NCBI GenBank assembly: GCA_035295165.1
Contig: DATGJN010000092.1
Location: forward strand, 62,001-126,000
Reading direction: 5' to 3'
Length of the DNA: 64,000 bases
Source: a bacterium
GTDB taxonomy: Bacteria > Sysuimicrobiota > Sysuimicrobiia > Sysuimicrobiales > Segetimicrobiaceae
The notes under the pieces are model-generated. The model made no database searches. It worked only from the letters and a program-made list of their open reading frames with translations, and had not been told where the DNA came from. This document shows positions 35,390 to 44,346 of this stretch, piece after piece (within the stretch, counting starts at the first letter, position 1; the number at the start of each line of letters is the position of its first letter). Made by a program: the position numbers and the translations under genes.

Positions 35390-35526
35390 ATGGGCGTGGG
35401 CGTACGTTAGGCTAAGGAGCGCGGGATTGGTGAATCATATAGTAGGAGCCGGAGGACCGGCGGCACCGTAGCGTCCGTGGGCGACCCGTGGTCGAGGGGC
35501 GTGCCCGCGACTTCAGGAGCGATCGA

Positions 35527-38208
35527 ATGCTGAAGCTCTTCCAGAATCTGCTCGGTGACAGTAGCGAGCGCATCGTGAAACACCTGCGCGACACGCTCGT
35601 GCGCGACGTGAATGCGATGGAGCCCGATCTCGAGGGCCTGTCCACCGACGCGCTGCGCGCGAAGATGGACGAGTTGCGTGAGCGCGTCCGCGGTGGCGAG
35701 CCGCTCGACGACGTGATGGCCGAGACGTTCGCGGTGGTCCGCGAAGCGTCGAAGCGGGCGCTGGGCCAGCGCCACCACGACGTCCAGTTGATCGGCGGCG
35801 CGGTGCTGTTCAGCGGGAAGATCGCCGAGATGAAGACCGGCGAGGGCAAGACGCTGGTCGCGACGCTCCCCCTGGCGCTGAACGCGCTTGAGGGACGCGG
35901 GGGACACCTGGTCACGCCGAACGATTATCTGTCGCGGGTCGGCGCTGGGTGGATGGGGCCGATTTACCATCTGCTCGGGATCAGCGTGGGCGTGATCACG
36001 CACGAGTTTGCCGGGCTCTACGATCCCACGTATCATGACGCGGCCCACCACGGTGACGAGCGGCTCGTGCACTTCCGCCCGGTCCACCGGCGCGAGGCAT
36101 ACCTCGCGGACATCACGTACGGCACGAACAACGAGTTCGGGTTCGACTACCTTCGTGACAACATGGTGATCCGAGGGGAGGATCTCGTCCAGCGTGAGCT
36201 CCGGTACGCGATCGTCGACGAGGTCGACTTTATCCTGATCGATGAGGCGCGGACGCCGCTCATCATCTCCGGCCAGGTGGAGCAGTCTACGGACCTCTAC
36301 TACCAGTTTGCCAAGCTGGTGCCCCGTCTCGCCGCCGAGCAGGACTACCACGTTGACGAGAAGCTCAAGACCGCGACGCTGACGGAGCAGGGTGTGAGCC
36401 AGTTCGAGCGGTGGCTCGGCATCGACAACCTCACCGATCCGAAGCACATCGAGCTGATGCACCATGCGCAGCAGGCGTTGCGCGCCCACACCCTGTACCA
36501 CCGCGACGTCGAGTACGTCGTCAAGGACGGCCAGGTGCTGATCGTGGACGAGTTCACGGGTCGCCTGATGTTCGGACGGCGGTACAGCGACGGGCTGCAC
36601 CAAGCGATCGAGGCCAAGGAAGGCGTGAAGATCGAGAAGGAGTCCCAGACCCTCGCCACGATTACGTTCCAGAACTTCTTCCGCATGTACGACAAGCTTG
36701 CGGGGATGACCGGAACGGCCAAGACCGAGGAAGCGGAGCTCACGCAGATCTACAACCTGCCCGTGGTCTCGATTCCCACCCACCAGCCGATGGTCCGCAA
36801 GGACGCGCCGGACCTCGTCTACAAGCATGAGAAGGCGAAGTTCAAGGCGGTCGCGGACGAGATCGCTGAGTGGCACCAGAAGGGGCGGCCGGTGCTTGTC
36901 GGCACGCGTTCCATTGAGAAGAGCGAGGCGGTGTCGGCGCTCCTCCGCCGGCGCGGCATTCCGCACCAGATCCTCAACGCGAAGTACCACGAGCGTGAGG
37001 CGGAGATTATCGCCCAGGCCGGTCGGTCGGGCGCCGTGACGATCGCCACCAACATGGCGGGGCGCGGCGTGGACATCCTGCTCGGCGGCAACCCGCCCGA
37101 GGCGGGGGACGCGGAGAAGGTGCGCACGCTGGGCGGGCTGCACATCGTCGGGACCGAACGGCACGAAGCGCGCCGCATCGACAACCAGCTGCGCGGCCGC
37201 GCCGGACGCCAGGGTGATCCGGGCTCGTCCCGATTCTTTGTCGCCCTGGACGACGAACTGATGCGTCTGTTTGCCGGCGAACGCATCGCCGGCATCATGG
37301 AGAAGCTCGGCATCGAGGATGACGTCCCGATCGAGCACGCGCTGGTGACACGACAGATCGAGAACGCGCAGAAGAAGGTCGAATCGTACCACTTCGACGT
37401 GCGGAAGCACGTGTTGGAGTACGACGACGTGATGAACGTCCAGCGGCAGGTGATCTACGGCGAGCGCCGCAAGGTCCTCCTCGGCGAAGGGTTGCGGGAG
37501 AACATCCTGGACTTCATCGAGCAGCTCGTCGACGATCTCGTTGCGGGATTCTGCTCCACGGAGTCGCGGCCGGAAGAGTGGGACCTCGACGGGCTGCTAC
37601 AGGAGGTTCGGCATGTGATCCCGCTGCCTCCCGACCTCACCGTGGAGCAGTTGCGCGGGCTCGACGCCGACGGCGTGACCGAACACGTGTTGGAGGCCTC
37701 GCTGGCCGCGTACGAGGCCAAGGAGCAGGCGGTCGGGCCGGAGACGATGCGCGAGCTGGAGCGCATCATTCTGCTGCAGACCCTGGATCGCAAGTGGATC
37801 GACCATCTGTACGCGATGGACGCGCTCCGCGAGGGCATCGGGCTCCGGGCGTACGGACAGGCGAATCCGCTGATTGAGTATCAGAAGGAAGGATACGGGT
37901 TGTTTGAGCAGCTCAAGCGGGACGTGCAGGAAGAGACGGTCCGGTTCCTGTACCTCGTGCAGGTCCAGGCCGCGGCGGCGGCGCCCTCCAGGGACGCCGG
38001 TCCCGCGGTTCGCACCCCGGCGCGGACCGGATACCGCGTGACCCGAGAGAGCGGCGGCGGCGATGCGGGGCGTCCGCAGCCAGCCGCGGCGGCGGTCGGG
38101 GGCGGCGGGACCGCGACACAGGTCCGCGTGGCCAAGGTCGGGCGCAACGACCCGTGCCCGTGCGGCAGCGGGAAGAAGTACAAGAAGTGCCACGGCCGGG
38201 GTGAATGA
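35527..38208 (+). CDS. secA: Preprotein translocase ATPase SecA
   Basis: SecA drives unfolded proteins through the SecYEG channel. The 893-residue form starts at ATG 35527 with GGAGCG upstream. It shows Walker [15 protein letters not shown], the DEAD-type [19 protein letters not shown], the preprotein cross-linking domain, motif VI region [13 protein letters not shown] and [15 protein letters not shown], the helical scaffold and wing, and the C-terminal zinc motif [14 protein letters not shown] that binds SecB or phospholipid. A Pro/Ala/Gly-rich linker (about 830-870) precedes the zinc motif. It begins a run of plus-strand genes reaching wecG. Confidence 0.98.
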
Positions 38209-38214
38209 GCTAGT

Positions 38215-40242
38215 GTGACAGCGCCGCGGTTCCTCGCGGTTCTCCTCGCCGGCGCCGCGTACGCGGCGGCGTTTCCCCCGTTCGACCTCGGATGGCTCGC
38301 ATGGGTCGCGCTTGTGCCGTTGTGTGTCGCGGCGGCGACCGAAACTCCGCGGACCGCGTTTCGCCTCGGCTACTGTTGGGGATTGGTCGCGTTCGGCGGC
38401 GTGTTGTGGTGGCTCACGGCGTTCGGCCCCGTCGTGTGGGTGTCCGCCGTGGCGCTCGTCGCGGTCTTCCCCGGCGCGGCGACCGCGACCGCCGCGTGGG
38501 CGCAACGCGGGCGCGGCGACGCCCTCGGATTGCTCTGGATGCCCCTCGTGTGGGTTGTCGGTGAGTTCGTGCGGAGCCAGGGCCCGCTCGGATTTCCCTG
38601 GGCGCTCGTGGGAGAGTCGCAGCACGGGGCACTCCCGGTGGCGCAACTTGCGTCAGTCGCCGGGGTGTGGGGCGTCAGTTTCATCGTTGTGCTGGCGAAC
38701 GCGCTTCTGGCAAACGTGGTCGTCCGCCGCGCCACGGTGAGCGCGTGTCTGGCCGCGGCGGCGCTGATCGCGGGAACCGTCGGGTGGGGGTGGTCGGCGC
38801 TGCAGACCCCGGTTGCGCCAGCCGGGCCCTCGGGTGCGGTGACCGCCGCGGTCGTGCAGCCGAACGCGCCCCCCCGCGGGCCCACGACCCTGTCGGACAC
38901 ACGCGCGCAACTCGCGGTCCTCGAGACGCTCACGAGCGAGGCTACGTCACGCGGGGCTCAGCTCGTGGTGTGGCCGGAGACCGCGTTTCCGACGGATGTC
39001 GCCGGCGACGCCGCCGCGCTCGCCCGCATCGGGAGATGGATCCGTCGGAGTCCCGTCGCGCTGATCGCAAGCAGCCTGGAGGGCGGGACCACCGACTCCG
39101 CGTTCGCGTTCTCGCCCGCGGGTGCCCTTGTGGGTCGCTACGACAAGATGCACTTGGTACCGTTCGCCGAGTTCGGCGAGCGCGCCGGTCGGACGCCCGG
39201 CGTGCTGCCGGCGCCGAGCGGGCCGGTGGGGATCGCGATCTGCTTCGAGAGCGTGTTTCCCGAGATCGCCCGCAACACCGTGTTGGGCGGCGCCGATCTC
39301 CTCGCGGTGCTCACGAACGACGCGTGGTTCTCCGGCCCTGCCCCGGCGGAGCAGCACGCCGCCGCGGCGGCGTTTCGGGCGATCGAGGAAGGGCGCTACC
39401 TGCTTCGTGCCGCGAACAGCGGCATCAGCGAGGTGATCGACCCCCACGGCCGCGTCGTGGCAATGCTGCCGCTCGGGGCCCGCGGCGTCCTGGTGGCGCG
39501 CATTGCCGCGACGGCCAGGTTGACGCCGTACGCCCGATACGGCGACCTGCTCCCGTGGGCTACCGTCGCCATCGGCACGGTGCTGCTCGCGCGGCGGGCT
39601 TGGGTCGGCGGGATGCCTCCCGCGGATCCTGCGTTCGTCCGCCTGCTCACCGTGTCCGTCGCCCCGTTGCTCGCGATCGCCGCCGTGGCATGGGGCGCCG
39701 ATGCCGCGCGGACGCCCGGCCTGCTCGTCGCGGGTGCGCCGGTGCCGCTGCCGGTGCTGGCGGTGTTGGGGGCGAACGTCGTGTTCAGCATCGGTCGGCC
39801 GGTGCGCAGCCTGGGGTTCCAGGCGGCCGGGTTCGTGCCGGCCGCGGTTGCGGGCCTGGCCGTGGTCGGGGTTGTGGTGGGCGTCGCGGCGCAAGCGTTC
39901 GCGTCGCAGGGCGCGCCGGTGACCTTCGGGTCCCCGGCGGGCGGGTGGTGGGTAGGGAGCCTGGTGCAGGTGCTCGTCGTCGGCCTGACCTTGGAGTGGT
40001 GGCTGCGAGGACTCGTGTACGGTGCCGCGCTCGCCTGGCGCGGCTGGCGCGTCGCGGTCGCGTGGTCCGCGGTGCTCGGGTTGCTCGCCGCCTCGCCGAG
40101 GGGCGCGGAGGCCATGGTGTGGAGTTGCTGCGCGGGGCTCGCCTTCGGCGCGATTCGGACGCGGTGGCCGCAGGTTCCCGCGCTCGCGGTGGCGCACGGC
40201 GCGGGCGCGGTCTTCCTCGGTTTTTTGCTTTCACCCTGGTGA
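38215..40242 (+). CDS. lnt: Apolipoprotein N-acyltransferase with an extra C-terminal CPBP-like membrane domain
   Basis: Lnt adds the third acyl chain to lipoproteins. The first 450 residues contain the membrane bundle and nitrilase domain with the triad Glu255 (VVWPETAFPTD), Lys311 (YDKMHLVPFAEFGE) and Cys343 (ICFESVFPE). At 675 residues it is about 150 longer than usual. The added part has several helices and closely resembles CPBP (Abi/CAAX-type) membrane proteases: LEWWLRGLVY (593-602) aligns with EExxxRG, and AHGAGAVF carries His661 of the third motif. The first Glu, the middle His and the last Asn are missing, so it is probably not a protease. The start is GTG, six bases after secA. Confidence 0.9.
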   Translation: MTAPRFLAVLLAGAAYAAAFPPFDLGWLAWVALVPLCVAAATETPRTAFRLGYCWGLVAFGGVLWWLTAFGPVVWVSAVALVAVFPGAATATAAWAQRGRGDALGLLWMPLVWVVGEFVRSQGPLGFPWALVGESQHGALPVAQLASVAGVWGVSFIVVLANALLANVVVRRATVSACLAAAALIAGTVGWGWSALQTPVAPAGPSGAVTAAVVQPNAPPRGPTTLSDTRAQLAVLETLTSEATSRGAQLVVWPETAFPTDVAGDAAALARIGRWIRRSPVALIASSLEGGTTDSAFAFSPAGALVGRYDKMHLVPFAEFGERAGRTPGVLPAPSGPVGIAICFESVFPEIARNTVLGGADLLAVLTNDAWFSGPAPAEQHAAAAAFRAIEEGRYLLRAANSGISEVIDPHGRVVAMLPLGARGVLVARIAATARLTPYARYGDLLPWATVAIGTVLLARRAWVGGMPPADPAFVRLLTVSVAPLLAIAAVAWGADAARTPGLLVAGAPVPLPVLAVLGANVVFSIGRPVRSLGFQAAGFVPAAVAGLAVVGVVVGVAAQAFASQGAPVTFGSPAGGWWVGSLVQVLVVGLTLEWWLRGLVYGAALAWRGWRVAVAWSAVLGLLAASPRGAEAMVWSCCAGLAFGAIRTRWPQVPALAVAHGAGAVFLGFLLSPW

Positions 40243-40320: not shown

Positions 40321-41482
40321 GTGACGGTCGAGGAACTGAAGCGTACGCTCGAAGGCTATCAGGAGCGCCTCAGCGGTATCGGGAGGCATCTTTGACGTTC
40401 CCCGCATGCGCGCCCGCGTCGCGGATCTCGAACGGCAGATGCAGCAACCGGGTTTCTGGGATGACCAAGACGCCGCCCGGCGCGTCTCGCAGGAGGTCGC
40501 CGGGCTTCGCTCCCGGATTGACGAGCTGACCGATCTCGATCGCGAGATCGGCGACCTGCGTGAGCTGGTGGAGCTCGCCGGGAGCGAGGATGCGGCGACG
40601 CTCGCCGAGGTTGAGCGCGAGCTGGAAGCGGTCGGCGGGCGGCTCGATCGCTTCGAACTGGCGACGCTGCTTGCGGGTGAGCACGATGCGAGCAACGCCA
40701 TCCTTTCGGTACACGCCGGCGCGGGTGGTACGGAATCCCAGGACTGGTCCGAAATGTTGTTGCGCATGTATCTTCGGTGGGCCGAGACCCACGGCTATCG
40801 CACCGAGGTCGTCGACATGTCGCCCGGCGAGGAAGCGGGCCTGAAGAGCGCGACCGTCATCGTCTCCGGCCCGAACGCGTACGGCTATCTGCGGGGCGAG
40901 CGCGGCGTCCATCGGCTCGTCCGTCTCTCGCCGTTTGATGCGGCGCACCGCCGCCACACCTCCTTCGCCCTCGTCGATGTGATCCCTGAGGTCGAGGCGA
41001 CCGAGGTGCAGATTCGTGACGACGAGCTGCGCGTGGATACGTACCGATCGGGTGGCGCCGGCGGCCAGAACGTCAACAAGGTCGAGACCGCCGTCCGGAT
41101 CACCCACCTGCCCAGCGGCATCGTCGTCCAGTGCCAGAACGAACGCTCCCAACACGCGAACAAGCTCACCGCGATGAAGCTGCTCCAGGCGCACCTGTTC
41201 GAGCGCAGCCAAGAGGAACAGCAGCAGAAGCTCTCGGCGATCCGCGGGGAACACCGCGACGCCGCGTGGGGGAACCAGATTCGGTCGTATGTCTTGCACC
41301 CGTACACGCTCGTGAAGGATCATCGCACCGGCGTCGAGACCGGCAACACGCAGGCGGTGCTCGACGGCGGGTTGGACCCGTTCATCGACGCCTACCTTCG
41401 ACTCGGCCGCGCGCCCGCGCAGGCCGGCGAGGTGAGCGCCGGCGCGGACCGCCGCGGCACCGAACCGCAGGCGCCCTCCTGA
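40321..41482 (+). CDS. prfB: Peptide chain release factor 2, made by programmed +1 frameshifting
   Basis: RF2 ends translation at TGA and TAA codons. The gene is split between two frames: GTG 40321 (GGGGGT upstream) opens [17 protein letters not shown] and reaches CTT TGA C at 40390-40396. GGGAGG sits just upstream of that site as the stimulating Shine-Dalgarno. Slipping past T40393 continues [13 protein letters not shown] to 41482. This is the classic RF2 autoregulation: low RF2 makes the ribosome pause at the TGA and shift. The joined protein is 386 residues, with RLSPFD as the RF2 stop-recognition tripeptide and [10 protein letters not shown] as the catalytic loop. The last 25 residues are an unusual tail. 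Confidence 0.97.
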
Positions 41483-42261: not shown

Positions 42262-44346
42262 ATGACGGCAATGGTTCGAACGCTCGCGCGCCGCTACCCC
42301 GTGCTGACCGTCTGCGCCGTGTTGGGGGTGGTGGCGGCGTTTGTGATTCTCGGCCACCGCTCCGAAGTCGAGCGCGCCTACCATACTGTGGAGATCACGG
42401 CCGACGGCGACGATTGGACGACCCTGGCCCGACGGGACGGCATGGACCTCGGCACGCTGTACGCGGCGCTGCGCGAGCGCGGCGTACGGAGCGTGACGCT
42501 GTACGCTGCATCGCTCCGGCGCTTGGCCAACACGGGAATGATCGCGTACATGACGGGCACCGACGCGCTGAACGCCGTCCGCACCGGCAGCCTCGGCGGT
42601 CCGCTCTTGGACATGGCGCGGCAGGGGCGGATTCACCCGAACAGCACGTACGTGGTCGGCGAGCCGGCGGTGCTGCGACTGGTCCAGCGCGGGTTCGCCG
42701 ACCAATTGGGGGCCGATCGCGCGGTCATGCGCGAGGGGAGCGGCCCGGTGCTCGAGATTGGCGCGCGCGGCCAAGAGGTGGAGGATGCGTCGCTCGGGGT
42801 GCCGCCGGGCGCGATTCAGGCACTCCACGATCGCGAGCTCGCGGCGGAGTTGCGCGTGCTCAACTTCCACTACGTCGCGCCGGGTGGGCTCGACGCGTTC
42901 TTCGTGGACCTCCGGCAGGCGGGCCAGCCGTTCACGCTGATCTTCGACCGCGATCAAGTGCTGGGGTACGACGCGTTGATCCCCGACGTCGCCGCCCAGA
43001 TGAAGTCGGCGGGGTTCGCGTTCGGCCGCATCGAGTCGTTCATCGCGACCCGCAAGCAGAAGGGCGAAGATGGGTTGACGAGACTCGTCGCCCCGGACAT
43101 GATCCGCGTCTTCAGCATGACGCCGCAGGAACTCGCAACGTCAACGCCGGAGGACGCGCGCGACAAGTTCGTGCTCGCGGCGCGCGAGCGCAATGTGCGG
43201 ATCCTCTACGTCCGTCCGTTTCTGAGCACGACCGCGGGCGTGGACGAGATGCAGACGAACCTCGATTATGTGAAGTCGATCGCGGACGAGCTGACGCAGG
43301 CTGGCTACAAGCTCGGTAAGGCGGCGCCGTTGCCCGTGATGAGCACGCCCGCGCCCTTGTTCGGCCTCGCGGCGCTCGGAACGGTATCGGTCACGGCGAT
43401 CGCCACGGCCGAGGTGTGGGGCGCGCTTGCGCGCCCGTTGCCGGTCGCGCGGCTGCACCTGTGGGTCGGCGTCGGCGCCGTGCTTACGGTGGCGGCGCTC
43501 GCGCTCCACCACGTGACCCTGTGGCGCGAGGCCCTCGCGTTCCTGGCCGCGCTGACATTCCCCACACTCGGGATGATGTGGCTGGTGCCGGCGGCCCGTC
43601 GGGAGGACATCGCGGGGCGGCGGGCCGCGCCGACCCGGTCGGGGCTGCGGGCGTTCGCGCGCGGCGTCGTCGGGCTGTGGACCGTGTCGCTCGTGAGCGT
43701 GTTGGGCGCGCTCGTGATGGCGGCGTTGCTGAGCGAGTGGGATTTCATGATGGAAGTGCGGGAGTTCCTCGGCGTGAAGCTCGCCCACGTCGTGCCGGTG
43801 ATCGTCCTCGGTCTGCTGCTGGCCGCGGCGGACGTGGCGCCGGGCGAGCTGTGGCGGCGGCTGCGCGGGTGGCTACGGCAGCCCCTGCTGCTCGAGTACG
43901 GCATCGCGATCATCGTCATCGCCACCGCGGTGGTGTTCGCGCTCGGTCGCACCGGCAACTCCGGGCTGCCCCTCCTCGGCGGTCTCGAGCTGAAGAGCCG
44001 CGTCGTGCTGGAGCGGGTCCTGATCGCGCGACCGAGGACCAAGGAGTACCTTGTCGGCGACCCGTTCATGGTGCTGGCATTCGCCCTTGCGGCCGCCGGG
44101 TTGCGGCGCTGGATCCTGCCGGCCGCGGTGATCGGGGCGATCGGCCAAGTCGGGCTCGTCAACTCGTTCTCGCACATCCACACCCCGCTCGTCTACGCGT
44201 TCATGCGGACGGTCTACGCGCTCGCGATCGGCTCGGTGCTCGGCGGCGTGCTCGTTGCGCTGCTGTGGTGGGCGCGCCGTTGGTGGGGACCGGCCGTGGA
44301 CGGCGACTCTTCCCGAGCGTCCCCCGGGGCGTCACGCATGGCATGA
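42262..44346 (+). CDS. DUF5693 family polytopic membrane protein
   Basis: A 694-residue membrane protein that matches the DUF5693 family. A first helix (about 12-32) is followed by a large extracytoplasmic domain up to about residue 350, with text such as TLARRDGMDLGTLYAALRER and LNFHYVAPGGLDAFFVDLR that recalls a TIM-barrel-like solute domain. Then come about ten helices, including positive loops and FGRTGNSGLPLL-type text. In other genomes the family lies next to csaB, as here, where it overlaps csaB as ATGA. The role is not established; it may flip or export wall polymers, which is inference from position. Confidence 0.85.
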   Translation: MTAMVRTLARRYPVLTVCAVLGVVAAFVILGHRSEVERAYHTVEITADGDDWTTLARRDGMDLGTLYAALRERGVRSVTLYAASLRRLANTGMIAYMTGTDALNAVRTGSLGGPLLDMARQGRIHPNSTYVVGEPAVLRLVQRGFADQLGADRAVMREGSGPVLEIGARGQEVEDASLGVPPGAIQALHDRELAAELRVLNFHYVAPGGLDAFFVDLRQAGQPFTLIFDRDQVLGYDALIPDVAAQMKSAGFAFGRIESFIATRKQKGEDGLTRLVAPDMIRVFSMTPQELATSTPEDARDKFVLAARERNVRILYVRPFLSTTAGVDEMQTNLDYVKSIADELTQAGYKLGKAAPLPVMSTPAPLFGLAALGTVSVTAIATAEVWGALARPLPVARLHLWVGVGAVLTVAALALHHVTLWREALAFLAALTFPTLGMMWLVPAARREDIAGRRAAPTRSGLRAFARGVVGLWTVSLVSVLGALVMAALLSEWDFMMEVREFLGVKLAHVVPVIVLGLLLAAADVAPGELWRRLRGWLRQPLLLEYGIAIIVIATAVVFALGRTGNSGLPLLGGLELKSRVVLERVLIARPRTKEYLVGDPFMVLAFALAAAGLRRWILPAAVIGAIGQVGLVNSFSHIHTPLVYAFMRTVYALAIGSVLGGVLVALLWWARRWWGPAVDGDSSRASPGASRMA

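Follow-up and report, generated by a model that had tools for sequence, protein, structure and literature searches.

The question raised by this locus is why an apolipoprotein N-acyltransferase (Lnt) should carry a further run of membrane helices beyond its own last one, and what that addition might do. The window, meaning the whole stretch of DNA that was analysed, comprises 64,000 nucleotides of contig DATGJN010000092.1 from a bacterium of the Segetimicrobiaceae (phylum Sysuimicrobiota), and all positions below refer to it. At 38215-40242, the sequence and the open reading frame (ORF) call agree on a single uninterrupted frame encoding a 675-residue protein. An earlier note on this DNA had described an Lnt extended by about 200 residues that resemble a CPBP membrane protease, and an extension of roughly this size, about 210 residues beyond Lnt, is indeed present. 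The note had pointed to residues 455-675 for a search for CPBP homology; here the extension stands but its boundary moves, as residues 445-464 form Lnt's own last helix and the CPBP-like helices start at about residue 472. The gene and its parts are as follows.

38215..40242, + strand: lnt::CPBP fusion gene, 675 aa, GTG start
38248..38706, + strand: LNT_N membrane domain of Lnt, residues 12-164 (Pfam PF20154, 119 bits)
38842..39528, + strand: nitrilase-fold catalytic domain of Lnt (CN_hydrolase), residues 210-438 (Pfam PF00795, 103 bits)
38977, 39145 and 39241, + strand: codons of the Lnt catalytic residues E255, K311 and C343, respectively
39547..39606, + strand: final Lnt transmembrane helix, residues 445-464 (AlphaFold2 helix), the end point of ordinary Lnts
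39607..40239, + strand: CPBP-derived extension, residues about 465-675, ~210 residues
39946..40203, + strand: Pfam Rce1-like core (PF02517), residues 578-663
39991..40011, + strand: motif 1 remnant L593-E594-W-W-L-R598-G599, where Leu replaces the first Glu of the canonical EExxxRG
40090..40092, + strand: A626 at the motif-2 His position (His lost)
40108..40110, + strand: E632, invariant in 34/34 extensions and outside the canonical CPBP motif residues
40195..40209, + strand: motif 3 remnant H661-xxx-A665 (canonical HxxxN), His retained and Asn lost

By its domains and catalytic triad, the part of the protein spanning residues 1-464 is a complete apolipoprotein N-acyltransferase, for which N-acylation activity is predicted. 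It scores 276 bits against the Lnt equivalog profile NCBIfam TIGR00546 (cut-off 132.9), and its Glu-Lys-Cys triad is intact, at columns that are invariant in 44 aligned Lnts. Solved Lnt structures match this part in Foldseek at ~26% identity with a TM of ~0.8 normalised by target, and E. coli Lnt (PDB 5N6H, 5VRG) agrees with it in domains, catalytic E-K-C and fold, but stops at the last helix and has no CPBP extension. The same end point is seen more widely, with matches to outside Lnts mostly ending at residue 444-475 of the window-protein numbering. The rest of the lipoprotein pathway is encoded in the same genome by two Lgt and one LspA, and the single Omp85 found there is in keeping with an outer membrane.

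Across the family there is strong evidence for placing the extension in the CPBP (Abi/CAAX, Pfam Rce1-like) superfamily, because the extensions of 30 of 34 relatives match PF02517 and profile comparison puts the motifs in register. In the all-Pfam scan, those 30 homologous extensions match Rce1-like at E<=0.01 (best 4e-9), while none of the 34 matches any other Pfam family, and the genome search places PF02517 above its cut-off within Lnt ORFs in most genomes of the phylum, at up to 38 bits. The match of the window protein by itself is borderline and its score varies with the amount of sequence scanned: against a cut-off of 22.4, it reaches 25.2 bits in the genome search, 22.7 bits with the extension alone and 19.9 bits, under the cut-off, with the whole 675-aa protein. 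When the extension profile is compared by hhalign with the phylum's own intact standalone CPBPs, the match has a probability of 92% and an E-value of 6.6e-7, with LEWWLRG falling on EEIFFRG-type sequence and AHGAGAV on AHGVNNL, which bears out the earlier proposal that LEWWLRG and AHGAGAVF stand in CPBP order. Some fused members also match NCBIfam myxosortase-type CPBP models (best 1.7e-6). A PDB sequence search with the extension profile returned no match, a search in which the intact-CPBP control reached Rce1 only at E=0.9, so the lack of a match says nothing either way.

The extension is predicted to form seven helices (residues 472-498, 512-525, 537-564, 578-609, 611-629, 631-650 and 657-672). 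The model of the extension alone, built from an alignment of four fused sequences, is of low confidence (pLDDT 63, pTM 0.62), and when this low-confidence model was compared with 350,542 chains in Foldseek, SpdC ranked first (TM 0.51, E 1.1), Rce1 fourth and fifth (TM 0.47) and APH-1 eighth, all with E>1. As a check on the CPBP claim, the prediction brings CPBP-fold proteins to the top ranks, but at these confidence and E-values it is supportive only. Loops that would be cytoplasmic carry more positive charge, and the loop charges fit the topology expected from a cytoplasmic end to Lnt's own last helix; this would place the motif-bearing helices within the membrane, next to the membrane domain of Lnt. 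The near-cut-off Pfam score of the window protein alone and Foldseek E-values above 1 are what one would expect if the CPBP likeness were a chance one between membrane helices, yet the relatives' Pfam matches, down to 4e-9 and to no other family, together with a profile alignment that holds the motifs in register, make coincidence barely credible.

How widely the fusion occurs was assessed in 43 genomes of the uncultured phylum Sysuimicrobiota (CSP1-3), all within one order. A full-length fusion, with the Lnt profile and the extension in one ORF, is found in 32 of the 43; in seven more the gene runs off a contig, is split or has a broken reading frame (G004, G010, G019, G024, G025, G038 and G042), and in four incomplete genomes (72-78%; G017, G034, G036 and G039) the lnt locus was not found. 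Outside the phylum, Lnt with the extension occurs in none of 343 genomes, and the extension is on none of 76 Lnt loci from outside it that were retrieved by name; the six extension matches outside the phylum are standalone proteins of 237-307 aa. The relatives' extensions are homologous across the phylum and not unrelated sequence. Relatives that bear names put the window in this phylum: L077, 53% identical, carries the name ANGP1 (Candidatus Segetimicrobium genomatis in taxonomy). An origin from a CPBP gene that adjoins lnt elsewhere was considered and set aside: of the standalone CPBPs outside the phylum, the six closest have no lnt nearby. In one metagenome-assembled genome (G024; L023 / L060) the CPBP part is interrupted by a frame change and a TGA, perhaps through assembly error. 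Second, unfused Lnt-like genes are present in two genomes of the phylum (L069 in G015:C94 and L073 in G035:C8).

In an active CPBP protease, the first Glu of EExxxR (Glu1) and the motif-2 His (His2) activate water, while HxxxN, with the motif-3 His (His3) and Asn, forms the oxyanion hole (PMC11980579). The type II CAAX protease Rce1 of M. maripaludis (PDB 4CAD) and the myxosortase MrtX (PMC11980579) have EExxxR-type and HxxxN-type positions in the same order as the window protein, but the latter is without the catalytic Glu1, His2 and Asn: it has Leu593, Ala626 and Ala665 at these positions, with His661 present, which confirms the three losses listed in the earlier note. The complete set of Glu1, His2, His3 and Asn occurs in 0/32 aligned fusions, and the two His residues fare differently, the motif-2 His being kept in 3/32 and lost in 29/32, the motif-3 His kept in 17/32 and lost in 15/32. 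Clades were assigned from a tree built on the Lnt part, in which other phyla served as the outgroup. In this tree, families f3 and f4 form one clade (support 99) that keeps both Glu residues and, in two members, the motif-2 His, and has Arg and Asp in motif 3, with Arg in the place of His3. Families other than f3 and f4 have lost Glu1; f2 nonetheless carries HxxxN in six of its seven members, f1 retains His3 but has the Asn in one member only (L009), and f5 and f6 have Arg in motif 3. Because the clades retain different pieces of the catalytic set, inactivation of the protease probably followed the fusion and occurred on more than one occasion; the simplest reading, as a matter of parsimony and not of reconstruction, is that an ancestor with the full set would have decayed along different lines. 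Missing Glu1 and Asn would not by themselves prove inactivity, because a standalone CPBP subfamily naturally lacks both, and the losses of the motif-2 and motif-3 His are the stronger sign. From these residues we infer that proteolysis has been lost in the extension.

Loss of the protease residues is accompanied by constraint elsewhere. All aligned members have Glu594, Trp596, Arg598, Gly599, Glu632, Trp636 and Arg648, and in same-genus pairs the first and second codon positions have diverged less in the CPBP core (residues 578-668) than in the Lnt domains, while third positions continue to vary. Core identity is 43%, and the outer helices (residues 465-575) vary, at 29% mean pairwise identity. 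Judged by sequence alone, the CPBP part is kept under selection. An old fusion that persists as a membrane anchor and does little by itself would account for catalytic residues that decayed in several directions and for poorly conserved first helices, but it sits badly with core residues that are invariant across the phylum and with the level of core identity; moreover, the domain is lost in no member with a complete locus, a broken frame there being seen only in G024. We consider such a passenger improbable.

The invariant E594, R598 and E632, found in 34/34 extensions and polar within the membrane, could reflect a retained or changed catalytic activity. The extension would then still be an enzyme, either an intramembrane protease or another hydrolase or transferase, using E594 and E632 in the manner of the standalone subfamily mentioned above. 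That subfamily (alignment A7; L187-L190, L195-L209) is marked by WExxFRG / HxxKPxxE, measures about 230-310 aa and is unfused. Like the fusions, it is without the first Glu (0/17 rows), has an invariant second Glu and Arg and carries an extra Glu after motif 2, its E156, R160 and E195 being the invariant counterparts of the three fusion residues; it also lacks the Asn, and the profiles of alignments A2 and A7 match at 87.5% over 138 columns. Unlike the fusions, however, it is not fused to Lnt and retains both His, in 16/17 rows at motif 2 and 17/17 at motif 3, against 3/32 and 17/32 in the fusions, and when the two are aligned without gaps its Glu after motif 2 falls one column away from Glu632. 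Continuing catalysis by the extension is, on balance, rather unlikely. A derivation from this subfamily was considered; the extension profile scores similarly against it and against canonical CPBPs, so the domain may have come from either. The subfamily is itself widespread, and its catalytic status seems worth testing.

The surroundings of the gene bear on a further explanation. Its two neighbours in the window are conserved in most of the phylum.

35488..38208, + strand: secA, upstream neighbour (Pfam SecA domains)
40321..41482, + strand: prfB, downstream neighbour (Pfam PCRF/RF-1)

The order secA-fusion-prfB is found in families f1, f2, f3, f5 and f6 and in a single f4 genome. The fusion gene of genus g3 (L012, L013) does not directly adjoin secA, and at the other f4 loci (L032, L063-L065) neither secA nor prfB lies within the 0.6-1.5 kb of flank read. 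With secA as its usual upstream neighbour, the extension might serve as a docking or regulatory module that joins Lnt to the Sec translocon or to a lipoprotein-release transporter, or that promotes oligomerisation, rather than one that handles lipid substrate; SpdC, a degenerate CPBP and the top fold match, acts in such a way by binding a partner enzyme (PMC12272431). The neighbourhood is no argument for the fusion, however, because an Lnt without a CPBP extension (L145) also lies beside secA, and this explanation is doubtful.

Known CPBP systems offer precedents for a different role. Rce1 cuts beside lipidated cysteines, and the same is proposed for myxosortase (PMC11980579). In S. aureus, LnsB, a CPBP without the catalytic set, is needed together with LnsA for lipoprotein N-acylation (PMC7387801, PMC8689077), and it has been proposed to guide the substrate (PMC7387801). 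Likened by description, LnsB resembles the extension in being CPBP-type, in missing the full catalytic set and in its tie to lipoprotein N-acylation, but it is a separate protein and is partnered by LnsA, an NlpC/P60 protein with no relationship to Lnt. SpdC, likewise a CPBP protein, binds and steers SagB, for which its protease residues are not needed (PMC10482373, PMC12272431). SpdC/LyrA with SagB (PDB 6U0O) and APH-1 of gamma-secretase are degenerate CPBP folds serving a partner enzyme, but these partners are not fused and their pathways differ from that of the window protein.

The best reading of the locus, to which we give a probability of roughly 0.5, is that a CPBP fused to lnt has lost its protease function and been kept as a platform that presents substrate or lipid to Lnt. 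Under this model, a CPBP protease gene would have joined the 3′ end of lnt in frame in an ancestor of the Sysuimicrobiota. The Lnt part would have stayed an N-acyltransferase, while the CPBP part would have ceased proteolysis, with clades losing different catalytic residues, and remained beside Lnt as a platform in the membrane. In the likeliest form of the model, the extension would bind the diacylglyceryl-cysteine end of the apolipoprotein, or else the donor lipid, within the membrane, and the bound substrate would be presented to the Lnt active site, as proposed for LnsB with LnsA. We infer this binding and presentation role because CPBPs act beside lipidated cysteines and because LnsB and SpdC provide precedents. 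It counts against the platform that ordinary Lnt works without such a domain. More tentatively, and with less confidence than we attach to the platform, the CPBP fold may have been recruited at least twice independently, in LnsB and in this Lnt domain, as a non-proteolytic lipoprotein-binding part, making it a general receptor for lipidated cysteines.

The earlier note had considered an acyltransferase tied to a pseudo-protease undescribed. This stands for the fusion itself, as no Lnt-CPBP fusion is described in the searchable open-licence literature, but not for the principle, a degenerate CPBP in lipoprotein N-acylation being known in LnsB (PMC7387801). What is new is how the two proteins are joined and that the arrangement has become fixed across a phylum; neither the components nor the principle is new. 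In a natural fusion that spans a phylum, evolution has tied a well-studied acyltransferase to a pseudo-protease, and the single-chain version gives a direct way to test whether a CPBP fold keeps lipidated cysteines in place for an acyltransferase. It would also add one more case to the short list of CPBPs that work without protease residues (SpdC, APH-1 and LnsB).

Several minor observations concern other Lnt tails and the flanking genes. Two further long tails were examined as candidate CPBPs and rejected. In a Gemmatimonadota locus (L103:9366-10265), an 841-aa ORF has Lnt followed in frame by sequence that looks TatC-like, and is thus another Lnt fusion; in an Omnitrophica locus (L145:5935-8262), a 793-aa ORF that adjoins secA has Lnt followed by a tail that looks like a soluble metallopeptidase (HEIAH). 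In the window, prfB carries the classic RF2 programmed frameshift, with a GTG start at 40321 and an in-frame TGA at 40393 within CTTTGAC, after GGGAGG; the ORF list has the gene begin only at 40406. On the 3′ side of prfB, positions 42262-44346 encode a DUF5693 membrane protein (445 bits) that is conserved at this place in L076, L077 and L081.
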